Positions 635-7,300 of a DNA stretch of 7,495 nucleotides are shown piece by piece. The position numbers and the translations under genes are program-made. The notes beneath the pieces are model-generated. The model made no database searches. It saw nothing but the letters and a program-made list of their open reading frames with translations, and was not told the origin of the DNA. Position 1 is the first letter of the stretch. Each line of letters begins with the position of its first letter. Location: NCBI GenBank assembly GCA_007133845.1, contig SLLY01000001.1:1-7495 (forward strand). Reading direction: 5' to 3'. The stretch comes from Candidatus Woesearchaeota archaeon. Its GTDB lineage: Archaea > Nanobdellota > Nanobdellia > CSSed11-243R1.

Positions 635-1024
635 TTAATCACTTGAAAAATTACCTTGTATTTTAATACTATCTGATGTCATGTTTATATTTGTTGCGTT
701 GATAGGTTTGGAATTAAATTGAAAAGAATTTTCATCAATTTTTACATTCCAATCCCAGTCACCTAATGCATCATTCAATTTATCATCAACACAATTTTCA
801 ATATTTTCTTCAAAACATGCTCTTATTGCAAGCCTTACAAAAGTTTCTTGACGAATTAATTCTTTTTCTATTTCATATATACCCATTTGAACAGAAGAGC
901 TAGTTCTTATGCCTTTAGCTATTTCTCTATCAATACTTGAAACATAAAGTGAAAAAGTTATAGCTATCATTAACATAACAATGAATACTATCGGTGCAAT
1001 AACAAACCCCTTTTTATTCAACAC
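635..1024 (-). CDS. Pilin-like protein F, class III signal peptide
   Basis: This 129-residue protein begins with a short basic leader ending KKG (residues 4-6), followed by a hydrophobic helix at about 8-29. That is the layout cleaved by archaeal prepilin peptidase before the helix packs into a type IV-like filament. The remaining ~100 residues should face outward; they include Cys70 and Cys78 (possible disulfide), an acidic middle and N-x-S/T sites near the end. The start is GTG at 1024 (TTG at 1021 also possible). GAGGGTGG sits about 4 nt upstream, inside the end of the preceding gene, which it overlaps by 7 nt. It is followed 1 nt later by the coiled-coil gene. A minor pilin is the best reading; the exact role is unknown. 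Confidence 0.8.
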   Translation of the reverse strand: MLNKKGFVIAPIVFIVMLMIAITFSLYVSSIDREIAKGIRTSSSVQMGIYEIEKELIRQETFVRLAIRACFEENIENCVDDKLNDALGDWDWNVKIDENSFQFNSKPINATNINMTSDSIKIQGNFSSD

Positions 1025-1527
1025 TTTTCCACCCTCATATTATTAGGCCATACGCCCAAATAAATTTCAACAAAATCATTATCATATGAATCAGGTAAGC
1101 TCATATTAAAAAACGCAAGAGTTATTTTTTCAGTTCTTATGCAACATTCTCCATATTTTTCATATATTTCATCACTACATAAATTTTTACAGTAATTTTC
1201 AGGACATATTGAAAATATATAATAATATTTTGTTTTGTTTAGTGTCGTTGTTATTGTTTCTTCTATAAAATTGTTAATATATTCTGTAGATTTACTTTCA
1301 TTTCCATAGGATATACCAATTAATTCTGATATTTTACCTCTATCATCCGAATAATCTAACGTTGTTATCAAAAGCCTTTGAACATATGCACTCTGTGCTC
1401 TACTTCTTCCTGCTTCTATTGCTCTACCTGTTGTTTGATTTCCCAAAAAGACAACCATTAATGATACAATTATTATTAAAATTAATAAATCTACAATCGC
1501 GCCCTGTCCTTTTTTATTTACCAACAC
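1018..1527 (-). CDS. Pilin-like protein E, class III signal peptide, cysteine-rich
   Basis: This 169-residue protein has leader MLVNKKG cleaved before QGAIVD, the closest match in the cluster to the classical archaeal KKG/Q signal, then a hydrophobic helix at about 11-28. An amphipathic stretch follows (about 35-60, with QSAYVQRLL). The outer domain holds six cysteines at 108, 113, 117, 128, 129 and 169, including a vicinal Cys-Cys pair, which suggests disulfide stabilisation outside the cell. The start is GTG at 1527 (in-frame TTG at 1524 as alternative), with GGTGGT a few nt upstream. It overlaps the preceding gene by 14 nt and the next by 7 nt, so these genes are co-translated. Its precise role in the filament is not known. 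Confidence 0.82.
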   Translation of the reverse strand: MLVNKKGQGAIVDLLILIIIVSLMVVFLGNQTTGRAIEAGRSRAQSAYVQRLLITTLDYSDDRGKISELIGISYGNESKSTEYINNFIEETITTTLNKTKYYYIFSICPENYCKNLCSDEIYEKYGECCIRTEKITLAFFNMSLPDSYDNDFVEIYLGVWPNNMRVEKC

Positions 1528-1843
1528 TTACCACCACATTGCTTAATTTTCCATTTATTAAAAAAGGCATAGAATTAATTACAACCACATTAGAATTATT
1601 AATATCTCCCCACACGTCATTTCCAACTTTAATATGTATCTTGTAATTAGATGATATCTGTAAGTCTTCTAGACATCCTTCGTTTTTTATAACATATTCA
1701 GCAACGTTCAAAGATTTTTGAGACATTTCTACGATTTCTGTTTGATTTGAAAAATTGATATATAAAGTAAATAATGCTAAAATAAATACAACTAATACTA
1801 TAGAAACTGGAATAAGTATTGGAACTTCTTCTCCTACTGGCAT
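1514..1843 (-). CDS. Pilin-like protein D with atypical short leader
   Basis: This 109-residue protein, the smallest pilin-like one here, starts MPVGEEVPIL and continues into a hydrophobic helix at about 9-28. It lacks the KKG leader of its five neighbours: there is no positive charge before the helix, and the only plausible cleavage is after Gly4, before Glu-Glu. It may be processed in a relaxed way or stay as an uncleaved anchor. The C-terminal part is beta-rich (SNVVVINSMPFLINGK), as in small archaeal pilins, with a single Cys57. ATG at 1843 is preceded by GGTGAT about 7 nt upstream, a good match to the archaeal anti-Shine-Dalgarno. It overlaps the genes on both sides (10 and 14 nt). Confidence 0.75.
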   Translation of the reverse strand: MPVGEEVPILIPVSIVLVVFILALFTLYINFSNQTEIVEMSQKSLNVAEYVIKNEGCLEDLQISSNYKIHIKVGNDVWGDINNSNVVVINSMPFLINGKLSNVVVSVGK

Positions 1844-2265
1844 TTTCTTATCACCGTATTCTCTGAGTTTATGTTAGTTATATTTAAACACGAAATAGAA
1901 ATATTACTTTCAGAGCTTATGTCATTTATCGGAAATAATGTGCCTCTTTTTAATTTATTTCCATTAAAGAGTATAAAACTTTGATTGTCTTCAAAACTTA
2001 TATTTAAATCCATTTTTCCTTCATAAATAACAGAAACATTATATTTAGATGCAGAAACCATTTCAATAACATTTGAAATACTTTCAGAAGTTTTTGCCAC
2101 CCTATTTAAATTTTGAATTTCATGTTGTGTTGAAACAACATAAAAAAATGTTGTCGCAATTATAACTGCAAAAATAATAAAAGCAAACTTTGAAAATATG
2201 AAAGTTATAGCTCCCTTTTTAGATGAAATATATTTGGTATGGTTCTGGTGAGTTTCCATTATCAT
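1834..2265 (-). CDS. Pilin-like protein C, class III signal peptide
   Basis: The KKG motif precedes AITFIF and a strong hydrophobic helix, then a beta-rich outer domain with several N-x-S/T sequons and two Cys near the C-terminus (possible disulfide). I chose ATG at 2265 (143 aa) because GGTG lies 6 nt upstream; ATG at 2259 and GTG at 2274 are in frame. Any of these leaves a basic leader of about 15-20 residues before KKG, longer than in the neighbours. The 47-nt overlap with the preceding gene is the longest in the cluster, with the KKG codons spanning that gene's stop. A structural minor pilin is likely; there is no specific evidence beyond signal, helix and context. Confidence 0.78.
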   Translation of the reverse strand: MIMETHQNHTKYISSKKGAITFIFSKFAFIIFAVIIATTFFYVVSTQHEIQNLNRVAKTSESISNVIEMVSASKYNVSVIYEGKMDLNISFEDNQSFILFNGNKLKRGTLFPINDISSESNISISCLNITNINSENTVIRKCQ

Positions 2266-2677
2266 TATGTACACCGTAATGAAGGATTAAATCATAATTT
2301 CCTTCCTCTAATGTTAATGTTGTCACTTCACTTTTATATCTATCTGTGATATTTAATATATCAAATTCTATGGAATTATTGAGATTGAATTTTGAACCAG
2401 ACACCGCTATTGTGTTATTTTCACTGGAAAATGTTACATTGTGTCCTTGGGGCACTTTAAAATTTACTCTTGAAAAAGAACCATAATCCGTTGTCGTTCT
2501 TAAATTTTTCATTGTACTCTCCATTTCTTTATAGCTGTTTACAAATTCATTGTGATTTGAGAATTCTGAAAAATTTCTAATTTGATAAAATCCAATTGTA
2601 ATTACAAATGCTGCAATAAAAATTGTCAAAAATAAAAGAAATGGAAAGGATTCGACTCCTTTCTTCGATTTTATCAT
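2219..2677 (-). CDS. Pilin-like protein B, class III signal peptide
   Basis: This 152-residue protein starts MIKSKKG, then VESFPF and a hydrophobic helix at about 11-31. The KKGVE..PF signal is shared with pilin A just upstream, suggesting common recognition by the same peptidase or an ancestral duplication. The outer part has no cysteine and is predicted beta-rich: a segment SRVNFKVPQG at 69-78 is followed by VTF and a later NYDLILHYG, an arrangement often seen in archaeal pilin-like proteins. ATG at 2677 lies 9 nt after the pilin A stop and has no clear Shine-Dalgarno, so it may depend on translation of pilin A. The gene overlaps pilin C at its 3' end. Confidence 0.8.
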   Translation of the reverse strand: MIKSKKGVESFPFLLFLTIFIAAFVITIGFYQIRNFSEFSNHNEFVNSYKEMESTMKNLRTTTDYGSFSRVNFKVPQGHNVTFSSENNTIAVSGSKFNLNNSIEFDILNITDRYKSEVTTLTLEEGNYDLILHYGVHNDNGNSPEPYQIYFI

Positions 2678-2686
2678 TTTCTAAAA

Positions 2687-3226
2687 TCATTCTGCTCCAT
2701 TATCATTATTGTCGTCGCCGTTTTCTTCAACACAGTTTAATATTTTTTCTATGGAATCTCTATTTTCAGCGAGAGATTCATCCACCACATTAATCCAAAT
2801 TTTTAATTCATCTATGTTTGGTGTTACATCTTCTATGGTTTTATTTAAAAACCAAACTCCATCTAATTTATTACCATCTCTTAATTTAAAATCTTCATAT
2901 ACAGTATTCTCTGTATCATTATAGTATCCAAGATATACTCTTGCTACACCACATTCATCAGTTACGCCAACATCTATTGTAAGTAAATTTGAAGTAATAT
3001 TACAATACACATTGTTTACTGTTATATCTGGTGCCTCTTTATCTAATTGGCATATCATTTCTTGTGAGAGTGAATCGTCAATTCTTTCTGCCTGACTTAT
3101 TATACTATCTCCAAGTATTCCTGTAAATTGTAATGCTATTCCAATTACCAAAGCTGCAACTAATGCAATTATTATATATTTAAATGGTAGTCCTTCTACC
3201 CCTTTTTTATTTTTGAGCAACCCCAT
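2687..3226 (-). CDS. Pilin-like protein A with Ig-like outer domain
   Basis: This 179-residue protein has leader MGLLKNKKG (1-9), then VEGLPF and a very hydrophobic helix at about 17-37. After a polar linker, residues 64-150 show alternating beta strands with a VTDECGVARVYLGYYN core and a later DGVW turn, resembling bacterial/archaeal Ig-like domains. Cys59, 75, 92 and 165 could form two disulfides. The last 12 residues are almost all acidic or Asn. ATG at 3226 is placed by a perfect AAGGAGGT 6 nt upstream, the strongest ribosome site in the window, and a separate TATA box lies in the 48-nt gap after tadC. This suggests higher expression than the genes behind it, so it may be the main subunit of the set. 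The Ig fold is inferred from the pattern only. Confidence 0.82.
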   Translation of the reverse strand: MGLLKNKKGVEGLPFKYIIIALVAALVIGIALQFTGILGDSIISQAERIDDSLSQEMICQLDKEAPDITVNNVYCNITSNLLTIDVGVTDECGVARVYLGYYNDTENTVYEDFKLRDGNKLDGVWFLNKTIEDVTPNIDELKIWINVVDESLAENRDSIEKILNCVEENGDDNNDNGAE

Positions 3227-3232
3227 ATCAAT

Positions 3233-3240
3233 ACCTCCTT
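3233..3240 (-). promoter_or_regulatory. Strong Shine-Dalgarno of pilin A
   Basis: AAGGAGGT ends 6 nt before the ATG at 3226 and is fully complementary to the 3' end of archaeal 16S rRNA. It is much stronger than the sites before the overlapping downstream genes and fixes the pilin A start. Confidence 0.85.
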
Positions 3241-3260
3241 ACATTTCTTAGAAATCTTGA

Positions 3261-3273
3261 ATAATTTATAAAC
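3261..3273 (-). promoter_or_regulatory. TATA box before pilin A
   Basis: GTTTATAAATTAT lies between the tadC stop and pilin A. Transcription starting about 25 nt downstream (near 3243) would give a short leader that just contains the Shine-Dalgarno. It would let the pilin genes be expressed independently of tadC. No clear BRE can be called. Confidence 0.5.
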
Positions 3274-3274
3274 T

Positions 3275-5236
3275 TTAGCCTAAAAGCAATCTACTTATAA
3301 TTAATGTAAATGTAAATATGAAAAGCGCTATTGGAATATTTTTATAAATCTCCTGTTTGAATATTACCTCATCTTTTCCATGTTGTAAAAGTGAAACATA
3401 TCGTATTAAGAGATATGCTAATAAAATCATGTATACTCCTGCAACTAATTGAAGCATTTCAACACTTATTCCAGGGTCTTGAAGCATAGGTAAAGTCATA
3501 TATTCAAAACCTAATCCCGCCATACTATGCTGTGTTTCAGCAAGTCCATCTTGTATAATTTGTTGTAAAGTTATTATTAGTCCAGTTATCATAGGTGCAA
3601 AAATACATGCAGTGGTTTTCATCATAGAAAGTGCATTCTTTAAAGTTGTTTTTAATTTTTTTTCAGTTTTATCTAACATATCATAATGATTAGAAATTGT
3701 AAAAAGAGTTTGCGCGGAATTTTTTATACCTCTTTTCAATGAATTTAAGAAAATATCCATAATTAATTTAAATTGAGTTGAGTAAACTTCTATTAATGAA
3801 CCATATTCTTTATTAAAAAAAGCATTTTCTAAAGTGGTATGCCTACTTCTTAATGTTCTATATGTTTTTTTCATAATTTTACCAAATATGGTATTGTCTA
3901 TTGTTTTTCCAATATGCTTTATTGTTTCTTCGGGGGAACGTCCTTCATCAATTCTGCTTGCAAGTTGGTAAGTTCCATCAATTGTTTCTTCTTCGAGCTT
4001 TTTTATTTTATCACGTATTTCTTTTTTATACCAAGAAGTGCCATAAGAATACAATACTATTGCAGCTCCAAAACCCCATATTATTGTCAGTGTATTGAAT
4101 CCTTGCAATATATCTGAGAATACAGAAGGGATGAATGCAACACCAGGTATTTCACTTATTAAATAGAGTATGCCTGGGAAACTTATTATTAAAAATACAA
4201 GAGTGCAGTAAATTATTGCGTTTGCTTCAAATATTTTTTCTCCGAATTTTAATTTTAAATTTCCTTGTTTAGGATATATATCCAGTTTTTTTGGCAATTT
4301 AATACTAGAAAATGTAGGAGGTCTTTTTACAAGTATACTATTTGAATAAAAATAAATCGCTATAAGTGAGATGATTAAAAGAAAGAACATTTGCAAGGGT
4401 GAAGAAAATTCTTTCCCTATAAAGGAGAATATAGGAAGTAGAGAAATTATAACTAATGGAAGAATGGTTCCAAAACTGAAAAGAAAAAGAGTTGGAAGGT
4501 GTAATTGATTTGTGTATTCTTTTGTTTTATTAACTATTCCTTCTAATGAGATATTTATAGCTTTGTCAAGTGTTTGATTTCTTTTAATCTCATTTTTTTC
4601 AGAAATAGATGAAATCATAAGATATATACTTCTTTTTAATTCCGAAGAGTATTCTTCCCATTTTTCACCTAATTTTCTCATCTCTCTTTTTATATTTGTT
4701 TTTTTTCCAATTAAACAACCCCATAATATTTTTTTTATATCTCTTGAAATTCTTCCTTTAGAATGTTTTGAAACAAATTCAAGTGCTCTTTCTAAATTAG
4801 GATTTTGCTTTAGATATATAATAAGATGCGTAAGAATTGTTGGTGCTTCTCCTAATGCATCGACTTTTTCAAGATTTGCTTCTGTTTTTGGAAAATCTGT
4901 TATCATATGTGCAATTAAAAATGGTAAAATAGAACTTACTATTATTATGAGAAAAGATTGTTGTACAAAAAAGAAAAATAGAATATTAAATATTGTAATG
5001 AATAATAATCCCGAAACTATTGCAAATCTACTAAATATGATTACATCACGAGGTGTTATTTCCCACTTTAAAAATTTAAGAGATTTAACGAATTCTTTAG
5101 AGACGTTTATATTGCCTTGTGCTAAAAAAGAAAATTTTGTAGAACACCATTTAGACATTTTTACATAATAATCTGTAAAATTTTTTGATTCTTTAGGTTC
5201 TCTATGTTCTACACCTTCTAAAAGTTTAGTTTTCAT
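3275..5236 (-). CDS. TadC/FlaJ-like pilus assembly platform, type II secretion F-domain protein
   Basis: This integral membrane platform recruits the assembly ATPase and drives pilin polymerisation in type IV pilus-like systems. It is about 653 residues from ATG at 5236 (a GTG at 5242 would add two). Hydrophobic segments lie near 66-92, 95-112, 249-275, 283-303, 340-363, 384-402, 541-561, 595-617 and 636-654. Two cytoplasmic helical regions, about 130-245 and 410-535, match the duplicated GspF/TadC layout: LGEAPTILTHLIIYL begins the first and IDGTYQLASRIDEGRS the second. The segment HLPTLFLFSFGTILPLVII is characteristic of archaeal TadC/FlaJ proteins. Six pilin-like genes follow on the same strand. 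No ATPase gene adjoins it; a tRNA lies just upstream, so the motor must be encoded elsewhere. Family assignment is firm; whether it builds an adhesion pilus, secretion or uptake machine is unknown. Confidence 0.9.
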   Translation of the reverse strand: MKTKLLEGVEHREPKESKNFTDYYVKMSKWCSTKFSFLAQGNINVSKEFVKSLKFLKWEITPRDVIIFSRFAIVSGLLFITIFNILFFFFVQQSFLIIIVSSILPFLIAHMITDFPKTEANLEKVDALGEAPTILTHLIIYLKQNPNLERALEFVSKHSKGRISRDIKKILWGCLIGKKTNIKREMRKLGEKWEEYSSELKRSIYLMISSISEKNEIKRNQTLDKAINISLEGIVNKTKEYTNQLHLPTLFLFSFGTILPLVIISLLPIFSFIGKEFSSPLQMFFLLIISLIAIYFYSNSILVKRPPTFSSIKLPKKLDIYPKQGNLKLKFGEKIFEANAIIYCTLVFLIISFPGILYLISEIPGVAFIPSVFSDILQGFNTLTIIWGFGAAIVLYSYGTSWYKKEIRDKIKKLEEETIDGTYQLASRIDEGRSPEETIKHIGKTIDNTIFGKIMKKTYRTLRSRHTTLENAFFNKEYGSLIEVYSTQFKLIMDIFLNSLKRGIKNSAQTLFTISNHYDMLDKTEKKLKTTLKNALSMMKTTACIFAPMITGLIITLQQIIQDGLAETQHSMAGLGFEYMTLPMLQDPGISVEMLQLVAGVYMILLAYLLIRYVSLLQHGKDEVIFKQEIYKNIPIALFIFTFTLIISRLLLG

Positions 5237-5262
5237 TTGCACCCATTTTAAAAAATGTTTAT

Positions 5263-5284: not shown

Positions 5285-5388
5285 TGGGCCTGCCCAGATT
5301 TTCTCATCAAAAATAAAAATTTTTGATAACTCGAACTGGGGATCTTCTGCGTGTAAGGCAGACGTCATAACCACTAGACCACAGGCCC
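5285..5388 (-). tRNA. tRNA-Val (UAC) with a T-loop intron
   Basis: The acceptor stem pairs GGGCCTG (5388-5382) with CAGGCCC (5292-5286), with discriminator A at 5285 and no encoded CCA. The anticodon stem is TCTGC/GCAGA around loop CTTACAC, giving anticodon TAC at 5355-5353. The T-stem is CCCAG (5340-5336) with CTGGG (5297-5293), but 38 nt separate the two strands instead of 7. Removing 5299-5329 restores loop TTCGAGT and a 73-nt tRNA. The D-arm GTCT-loop-TGAC is normal, with a tolerated T-T mismatch. Identity and structure are directly readable. It has its own TATA-like element and lies between the tadC promoter and the small zinc-protein operon. Confidence 0.95.
5299..5329 (-). other. 31-nt intron in the T-loop of tRNA-Val (site 59/60)
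   Basis: The fold is a relaxed bulge-helix-bulge. The T-stem CCCAG/CTGGG is the outer helix. T54-T55-C56 pairs with intron GAA (5303-5301), with a G-A mismatch as the fourth pair. Bulges AGT (5331-5329) and AAT (5300-5298) follow. The intron's own hairpin of 10 bp starts TATC and ends GATG, with an AT-only centre. Cutting each bulge after its second base yields the 7-nt T-loop TTCGAGT. The exact cut could differ by one base. Confidence 0.85.
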
Positions 5389-6036: not shown

Positions 6037-6055
6037 GTAAATGCGGCGACCGGGA

Positions 6056-6137
6056 CTTTCTAAACTTTTAGGTTAAACTTTACGCTTAATTTGTCAGTTC
6101 AAAACTAAACTCATTTTGCGTGTTCCCCAAAAATTCA
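6056..6137 (-). other. 82-nt intron in the T-loop of tRNA-Gly (site 59/60)
   Basis: The T-stem CCGGG/CCCGG is the outer helix. T54-T55-C56 (6143-6141) pairs with intron GAA (6060-6058), with an A-A mismatch as fourth pair. Bulges AAT (6139-6137) and AGT (6057-6055) carry the cuts. The inner helix GAATTTTTGGG pairs with CCTAAAAGTTT, including wobbles. The result is the common T-loop TTCAAAT. This is the longest intron in the window and has no ORF. Confidence 0.85.
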
Positions 6138-6158
6138 TTTGAACCCGGGTCACAAGCT

Positions 6159-6181
6159 ATTTGCTGCTTTTTTTAAAACAG
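6159..6181 (-). other. 23-nt canonical anticodon-loop intron of tRNA-Gly (37/38)
   Basis: This is a textbook BHB. The outer helix is the anticodon stem, the central 4-bp helix pairs TTGC (32-35) with GCAA in the intron, and the 3-nt bulges are CAC and ATA. The inner hairpin is TGTTTT/AAAGCA with an A4 loop. Cutting after the second base of each bulge gives anticodon loop TTGCCAA. Confidence 0.93.
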
Positions 6182-6203
6182 TGGCAAGCTCGCATCCTAA
6201 CCA

Positions 6204-6252
6204 TTGTCCGATTTTCTTTCGATAAAATTTCTTCTTTCAAAAGAAAATGTCT
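6204..6252 (-). other. 49-nt intron in the D-loop of tRNA-Gly
   Basis: GTCT (6258-6255, the D-stem 5' strand) pairs with intron GGAC (6209-6206) as central helix. Bulges AGA (6254-6252) and AAT (6205-6203) place the cuts. The inner hairpin ATTTTCTTTT/GAAAGAAAAT is 10 bp with one wobble. No outer helix is visible, so this is a relaxed (one-sided) motif. Splicing restores GTCTAGTGGTTAGG, with the cut after G15. Confidence 0.85.
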
Positions 6253-6292
6253 CTAGACTATCGCCGCATTAAAACTAAAAATACTTTTACAT

Positions 6293-6303
6293 AAATATAA
6301 AGT
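6293..6303 (-). promoter_or_regulatory. TATA box of tRNA-Gly
   Basis: CTTTATATTTA is centred about 30 nt upstream of the tRNA 5' end, as expected for an archaeal tRNA promoter. It is back to back with the promoter of the + strand Taw1 gene. Confidence 0.6.
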
Positions 6304-6352: not shown

Positions 6353-7300
6353 ATGGCTTCATCTATGCTAAATGAAAAACAAAAAAAAATTTTCATTAGA
6401 CAACATTACGGACTAGCAGGAAAACATTCTGCTGTAAAAGTTTGTGGTTGGACTAGAAAATCGCTCCACGATAAAGGGGTATGTTACAAGCAAAAATTTT
6501 ATGGAATTCCTTGTCATAGATGTCTTCAGTTTACTCCAACAGTTAATTCATGTACTCAAAATTGTAAATTTTGTTGGAGGCTTGGTTCATACAATTATGA
6601 TGATAATTTAAATGATTGGGACAAACCAAAAGAAATAGTCGATAAAAGTATTGAAGCACAGAGAAGACTACTTTCTGGTTTTCCAGGTTCTACTTGCAAC
6701 ATTGAAAAATGGAAAGAAGCACAAAAACCTAAACAAGTAGCTATCTCTCTTGCAGGAGAACCTACAATTTATCCTAAACTTGGAAAACTTATCGAAGAAT
6801 TTCATAAATTAAGTATGAGTACTTTTTTGGTTACAAATGGAACATTACCAAAAAGTTTGAAAAATTTAAAAACACTTCCAACACAAATGTATGTCACTTT
6901 AGCATCGCCAGATTCTAAAACATTTGAAAAACTTTGTCAACCCAATATACCTAATGCTTGGGAAAATCTGAAAAAAACATTAAGTATTTTTCAAAATCTA
7001 AATACTAGAAAAGTAATAAGATTAACTTTAGTAAAAGGACATAATATGCATTCTATAGAAAACTATGCAAAATTAATTAAAAAAGCAAACCCTGATTTTG
7101 TAGAAGTAAAAGCTTTTATGAGTGTAGGTGGAGCTAGAAAACGTTTAGAATATGAAGCAATGCCTTTTCATGAAGAGATAGTTGATTTCGCTAAAGAATT
7201 AGGTGATAATTTAAAAATTAAATTTGCAGAAGAACAAAAAGAAAGTAGAGTAGCACTTCTCACAAATAAAAATAAGAAAGAGTGGAATATACACTCTTAA
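6353..7300 (+). CDS. taw1: tRNA 4-demethylwyosine synthase (TYW1/Taw1), radical SAM
   Basis: Taw1 condenses pyruvate carbons onto N1-methylguanosine-37 of tRNA-Phe to form 4-demethylwyosine, the tricyclic core of wyosine bases. At 315 residues it has the usual archaeal length without the flavodoxin domain of eukaryotic TYW1. The radical SAM motif CTQNCKFCW gives Cys67, 71 and 74. The second [4Fe-4S] set is Cys31, 44 and 57; the 13-residue spacings and the 10-residue step to Cys67 equal those I recall for the Methanocaldococcus enzyme (26, 39, 52, 62). Lys46, two residues after Cys44, corresponds to the pyruvate Schiff-base lysine. GEPTIYP (135-141) and VTNGT (160-164) are SAM-binding segments. 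The gene stands alone on the + strand, divergent from tRNA-Gly, and ends 6 nt from a convergent gene. Identification is very firm. Confidence 0.97.
   Translation: MASSMLNEKQKKIFIRQHYGLAGKHSAVKVCGWTRKSLHDKGVCYKQKFYGIPCHRCLQFTPTVNSCTQNCKFCWRLGSYNYDDNLNDWDKPKEIVDKSIEAQRRLLSGFPGSTCNIEKWKEAQKPKQVAISLAGEPTIYPKLGKLIEEFHKLSMSTFLVTNGTLPKSLKNLKTLPTQMYVTLASPDSKTFEKLCQPNIPNAWENLKKTLSIFQNLNTRKVIRLTLVKGHNMHSIENYAKLIKKANPDFVEVKAFMSVGGARKRLEYEAMPFHEEIVDFAKELGDNLKIKFAEEQKESRVALLTNKNKKEWNIHS

Follow-up and report, generated by a model that had tools for sequence, protein, structure and literature searches.

A tRNA-Gly(GCC) gene with predicted introns in three loops, and a recurrent intron core in its archaeal family

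The tRNA-Gly(GCC) gene and its junctions

The window, by which we mean the whole 7,495-nt stretch analyzed here, carries a tRNA-Gly(GCC) gene on the minus strand at positions 6042–6267, with predicted introns of 49, 23 and 82 nt at tRNA positions 15/16, 37/38 and 59/60. Read from 6267 to 6042, exon 1 (6253–6267) extends from the 5' strand of the acceptor to position 15 and has the same bases in G001, a genome of the same genus. The D-loop intron (6204–6252), its border placed to within a few nt, is followed by exon 2 (6182–6203), which holds the rest of the D-loop and continues to position 37 with the anticodon GCC, and then by the anticodon-loop intron (6159–6181). Exon 3 (6138–6158) runs from position 38 to T-loop position 59; the T-loop intron (6056–6137) and exon 4 (6042–6055, positions 60 to 73) complete the gene. 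The four exons, of 15, 22, 21 and 14 nt, are collinear within 226 nt, ruling out a split or permuted tRNA. Spliced together they form a 72-mer that ARAGORN calls as tRNA-Gly(gcc) and RNAfold folds into a cloverleaf. Coordinates, intron lengths and mature length are as given in a preliminary description of this DNA.

In its unspliced form the gene is missed by ARAGORN, with the intron option on or off, and by Rfam at E ≤ 1, and the 226-nt strand is strongly structured (z = −6.15). Rfam gives no group I intron match; at E ≤ 1 it matches just one place in the window, in a second interrupted gene, tRNA-Val(TAC) (5285–5388, minus strand), which contains a 31-nt intron at 59/60 (5299–5329). That match is sub-threshold and covers 5331–5388, and ARAGORN calls the gene only once the intron is removed. 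Across the family, many interrupted tRNA genes were missed or mis-scored by the two programs. A TATA-like box, TTTATATTTA, lies 25–34 nt upstream of tRNA-Gly(GCC) (6292–6301, minus strand), and the same 10 bases occur 5' of the G001 orthologue. The divergent neighbour (6353–7300, plus strand; PF08608 and PF04055) encodes a TYW1-like radical SAM protein and serves as a synteny anchor. Elsewhere in the window (638–5242, minus strand), a series of short ORFs whose products have hydrophobic N-terminal ends adjoins a T2SSF-type platform protein (PF00482), an arrangement resembling a pilus- or archaellum-like assembly locus.

In a bulge-helix-bulge motif, cleavage falls between the second and third bases of the bulge. 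We scored the junctions by enumerating this geometry, taking two 3-nt bulges and 4 bp as the strict form; the cut geometry agrees with a description of the ARMAN-2 enzyme and its RNA (PMC12397907). The preliminary description placed all six cut sites in 3-nt bulges, which holds strictly at 37/38 only. There, 4/4 central, 4/4 outer and 5/5 inner pairs are present with G-U counted. At 59/60 the T stem is the outer helix, and the central helix, UUCA (54–57) with AGAA, has three of four pairs and one A·A mismatch. The 15/16 junction is relaxed: GUCU (10–13) and GGAC supply a central helix, the inner helix is broken, and there is no exon-side helix. The exon sequence flanking this intron is the same in G001 and in the paralogous tRNA-Gly(TCC). 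Central-helix probabilities predicted by folding are low (0.02–0.33), the strict 37/38 junction included.

The 3' end of each intron would pair with exon bases of its own arm, namely GUCU 10–13, UUGC 32–35 and, with one mismatch, UUCA 54–57. The preliminary description proposed that splicing may be ordered relative to end processing. Folding does not support ordered splicing: the pairing around each junction is the same with or without the other introns, and a forced splicing order is rejected. Because the junctions use local pairing only, the three introns should be removable in any order. A three-intron tRNA for which removal order was measured is tRNA-Ile(UAU) of the red alga Cyanidioschyzon merolae, with introns at 12/13, 37/38 and 53/54, where the D and T introns leave before the anticodon intron (PMC9602550). 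Unlike the organism studied here, this alga is a eukaryote with an expected three-subunit enzyme (PMC6379350), and its D and T positions differ.

Orthologues and intron load in the family

The family comprises six genomes, G000 to G005, of which G000 is the window's. In G001 (PWUQ01000056.1, Candidatus Parvarchaeota archaeon isolate CSSed11_243R1), a tRNA-Gly(GCC) orthologue lies in the same synteny, beside a protein 81% identical to the TYW1-like neighbour. All 72 exon bases are identical. Its introns, of 58, 19 and 52 nt, are at the same borders and have diverged in sequence, the 52-nt T intron at 59/60 sharing the exon border of the window's 82-nt intron. The window's genome is metagenome-assembled, in 76 contigs and 78% complete, so we considered whether the three inserts are an assembly chimera; given a separate genome of the same genus with the same three borders and different intron sequences, the chance of this is practically negligible.

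We also considered whether the locus is a decayed, unspliced tRNA pseudogene with inserted sequence, as the failure of ARAGORN and Rfam to detect it might suggest. The exons are identical to those of G001 though the introns differ, and the TATA-like box is common to both loci. An intact second GCC gene, which the preliminary description named as part of the evidence that would count against its own reading, was looked for and not found in the 76 contigs of the 78%-complete assembly. Finally, 21 of 24 tRNA genes sampled in this genome are likewise interrupted, in a sample biased both ways, as Rfam favours intron-poor genes and the intron model intron-rich ones. On these grounds a pseudogene is very improbable. 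The 24 sampled genes hold 33 introns (7 D, 14 anticodon and 12 T); ten have two or more introns and two have three.

Intron counts come from a parser that inspects the D-loop site, 37/38 and 59/60 only. It finds 13 three-intron genes, one of them doubtful, across G000, G001, G003, G004 and G005; among 18 genes of G002 it finds no three-intron gene and no 59/60 intron. Two of its readings are in doubt, L016, read as Tyr here and as Gln by another parser, and a 115-nt T intron in L190. Besides tRNA-Gly(GCC), a tRNA-Ser(GCT) of the window's genome (L182 526–767, G000:C53) has three introns.

Orthologues of tRNA-Gly(GCC) in the rest of the family differ in intron content. By eye, the G003 gene has D and anticodon introns, the G005 gene a D intron, and the G004 gene D, anticodon and 53/54 T-arm introns; the G002 gene, found by Rfam, is intronless. 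A D-loop-to-anticodon pattern matched in 19 of 57 genomes, the window's own included, with at least one of the 26 matches (L035) not a tRNA. Outside the family, the gene is intronless in 10 of the 11 genomes where the pattern found it, and the eleventh, G030, has one anticodon intron. Since the orthologue is intronless in G002 and in those ten genomes, the introns look to have been gained inside the family.

Alternatively, the introns could be old and have been lost in relatives rather than gained by spread. The same sites are occupied in two genera of the family, and of 33 sites compared between G000 and G001 only 2 differ. Against this stand the intronless orthologues in G002 and outside the family, the near-identical cores at different sites of different tRNAs described below, and the parser-based differences among G003, G004 and G005, whose pairs differ at 7, 7 and 10 of 33 sites. 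We consider ancient introns quite unlikely and favour gain within the family, in line with the intron spread that the preliminary description proposed for this lineage, with one to three introns in the Gly(GCC) genes of G000, G001 and G003–G005.

Three-intron archaeal tRNAs are already known; tRNA-Pro(UGG) of Pyrobaculum islandicum, for example, has introns at 25/26, 37/38 and 56/57 (PMC4090602). As in the Thermoproteales, a tRNA here can contain up to three introns, and 59/60 and 53/54 are among the positions known there (PMC4090602). By tRNAscan-SE 2.0, the average for all archaea is 0.21 introns per tRNA gene and that for Thermoproteales 0.84; Pyrobaculum calidifontis has 71 introns in 46 genes (PMC8450103). 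Similar introns also occur in different Thermoproteales tRNAs, which has been taken as large-scale intron transposition (Fujishima 2010, as related in citing papers); in the present case this likeness, similar introns across tRNAs and sites, is found in the family and not among the window's three introns. The family here differs in belonging to another archaeal lineage, in its hairpin-plus-purine-tail core and in an alpha4-like endonuclease lacking the crenarchaeal loop. The preliminary description names Thermoproteales and a few DPANN lineages as the groups in which multi-intron tRNAs are concentrated, and this list is incomplete. Of the tRNA genes in three complete Asgard genomes, from Atabeyarchaeia and Freyarchaeia, 92–95% have introns and over half have several, often at non-canonical positions (PMC11291895). 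Most tRNA genes are interrupted there, as are most of those sampled in the window's genome; the lineage is another one, and the portion of that report consulted describes no common intron core (PMC11291895).

A recurrent intron core

Many introns of the family open with a common core. Its 5' arm consists of 3–5 variable bases, then C, then a stretch of pyrimidines; after a loop, the 3' arm has the purines that match this stretch, another C and the complement of the opening bases. A hairpin descriptor of this layout fits 45 of 104 family introns, whereas 200 sets of dinucleotide shuffles averaged 0.94 fits and never exceeded 4 of 104. From 42 cores we built a model, R1, using the 17 of equal length; 25 rows were dropped, and the MAFFT alignment of all 42 was out of register. 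Covariation among the 17 cores is partly built in, because they were chosen by a complementarity descriptor, and two of five measures are not clearly above shuffles (both-side changes, 96/500; further pair types, 427/500); the shuffle test of the 104 introns is the fairer control.

With at most 117 candidates scored per genome under strict filters, R1 matches at E ≤ 0.01 occur in 24 of 57 genomes, leaving 33 without. G000 to G005 have 12, 13, 34, 83, 84 and 58 matches, and any other genome has at most 21. The core thus extends beyond the family and is densest within it. In the window's genome there are 20 matches at E ≤ 0.5, none of them on the window's contig, its three Gly(GCC) introns included; the case for spread in the family therefore rests on other genes. 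One is the tRNA-Ser(GCT) gene of L182, in which R1 matches the D and T introns and, more weakly, the anticodon intron. In G001 the sister gene has a D intron that matches the core and a T intron similar by eye. The anticodon intron of a G003 tRNA-Asn and the T intron of a G004 tRNA-Met have cores identical over 39 nt. Among intron pairs from different sites and different isoacceptors, 962 of 7552 outscore the top pair obtained from 20 mononucleotide-shuffled sets. The top-ranked titles of an open-licence literature search include none on tRNA introns of this lineage or on such a core.

Where the copies lie bears on how they might have moved. Within the family, inspection by eye of 20 chosen stretches places 33 of 37 high-scoring copies inside tRNA genes. 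Two copies lie within 23S rRNA as apparent rRNA introns (L186, G003:C22:18100–18900; RF02540, 580.7 bits), and another lies about 125 nt upstream of 16S rRNA (L184). A further copy (L193, G004:C10, 129076–129114, minus strand) has CTTCAATGGCA on either side and lies close to the beginning of a protein-coding frame; it is possibly an mRNA intron. At 13 loci outside the family, also inspected by eye, four copies are inside tRNA genes (L160, L164, L165, L167), five are beside them (L157, L159, L163, L166, L168) and four are elsewhere (L155, L161, L162, L180), one of these at the end of a TnpB-like frame.

The imperfect hairpin and dispersed copies, together with this mixed placement outside the family, could mean that the core reached tRNA introns as mobile DNA, either a REP- or IS200/IS605-like element that depends on a Y1 transposase or some other element with tRNA genes as its integration target. 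A precedent has been proposed for Caldiarchaeum, with tRNA intron gain attributed to the integration of a mobile element at a tRNA gene (PMC3293823). However, we found no Y1_Tnp match in the six family genomes, which are incomplete and were searched for the Y1 type, and the family copies are concentrated within tRNA genes. We regard a mobile-element origin as rather unlikely, and copying of introns as such between RNA genes as the better account.

Several smaller observations concern the surroundings of the core. By eye, a second short hairpin unit sits in the loop of another intron (L027, L198) and recurs 5' of a tRNA (L190). The D introns of two different G004 tRNAs (L028, L139) share one longer insert, likewise by eye. 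At two loci of G029 (L039, L048), each tRNA-Gly is preceded by a fragment resembling a tRNA 5' end and then by an intron core; over the first 12 bases the fragment agrees with the following tRNA at 12/12 in L048 and 10/12 in L039. Directly downstream of tRNA genes in G036 (L168) and G000 (L003/L211 and L206), the core or its stem is repeated in tandem, and in L168 every repeat unit includes the tRNA 3' end as well.

Splicing enzymes and a possible mechanism

In the window's genome, RtcB is encoded at G000:C9:1713–3020 (E 3.4e-176). A search with PF01974 and PF02778 found no splicing endonuclease in this 78%-complete assembly, nor was one found in G005. G002, G003 and G004 have one endonuclease ORF each, of 177–188 aa; of the two alpha-like ORFs in G001, one lies on a 3.2-kb contig and may be a contaminant. 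A beta-subunit model matches only these same ORFs in the family, and a separate ORF in G011 and G040, all below the cut-off. The G003 protein scores above the TIGR00324 endA cut-off and aligns to Methanocaldococcus jannaschii 1A79 with no gap or insertion at the loop position. It lacks the ten-residue insertion of Aeropyrum pernix 3P1Z that starts K44-P45-R46 (roles of these residues are discussed in PMC12397907). From the number and size of the ORFs, the endonuclease of G002–G004 looks to be of the alpha4 type; it lacks the crenarchaeal loop.

Such an enzyme would not be expected to handle relaxed junctions. The M. jannaschii alpha4 enzyme is reported to be narrow in specificity, efficient removal of relaxed introns being confined to (alpha-beta)2 and epsilon2 enzymes (PMC6379350). 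Specific loops are described as essential for removal of relaxed motifs, with the alpha2 enzyme of Korarchaeum, which has the same loop, as the one further case (PMC4033280). Nanoarchaeum equitans and ARMAN resemble the family here in being archaea with diverse introns, and they have broad-specificity enzymes (PMC6379350, PMC12397907); those enzymes are (alpha-beta)2 and epsilon2, whereas G002–G004 have one alpha-type ORF each. If a loop-less alpha4 enzyme does splice D introns that have no exon-side helix, the published rule would have to be revised, unless there is a hidden partner.

Taken as a set, D introns in the family show this relaxed pattern. At the D site, 30 of 45 introns have 4/4 central pairs, compared with 20% of identically treated shuffles, and the exon-side helix is at the shuffled level (1.64 versus 1.65 of 4 pairs). 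The mean number of central pairs, out of 4, is 3.76 for 42 T-site introns (1.67 shuffled) and 3.57 for 68 anticodon-site introns (1.75 shuffled), an excess that is partly built in, as the parser demanded some central pairing at both sites.

Our preferred reading, which we hold to be highly probable, is that the only Gly(GCC) gene found in the window's genome contains three introns that would be spliced at bulge-helix-bulge-type junctions, and that the core of the family has spread between tRNAs and into 23S rRNA. The archaeal splicing endonuclease would cut the three introns, and RtcB likely joins the four exons. Insertion sites would be loops in which the host strand can supply the exon half of the junction. 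Core introns, with their predicted 5' hairpin and purine-rich tail, were likely copied between tRNAs and into 23S rRNA, and at each new site the intron 3' end would have been adapted to pair with the host arm, as the D-site combinations GGAC/GUCU, GAGC/GCUC and GAAC/GUUU suggest. The window's own introns may have lost their match to the core, or may never have had one. The near-identical cores offer fresh material on how archaeal tRNA introns move.

Folding calculations on 46 core introns, 45 from the family and one from G025, add a possible route by which junctions could form. The 5' hairpin is favoured (mean pair probability > 0.5) in 36 introns folded as the nascent part and in 6 folded whole, and in the whole-intron fold the same 5' bases pair with the 3' part of the intron in 31 of 46, all counts being without a shuffled control. 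The nascent hairpin may thus hand its 5' strand over to the intron 3' end, building the splice junction. Going further, we put forward as a tentative model, and a doubtful one in its entirety, that this is a spreading tRNA and rRNA intron family with a folding programme of its own, in which the nascent hand-over and the re-matching of 3' ends (GGAC/GUCU, GAGC/GCUC, GAAC/GUUU and UGAA/UUCA) might let a loop-less alpha4 endonuclease process relaxed D, anticodon and T junctions.

A separate regularity was seen in the same 46 introns. When the purine tail is compared with the pyrimidine arm as a parallel (mirror) complement, there are 369 matches, versus 304 ± 6 when tails are redealt among the introns. 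The ordinary complement gives 334 versus 299 ± 6, a weaker signal than the mirror complement.
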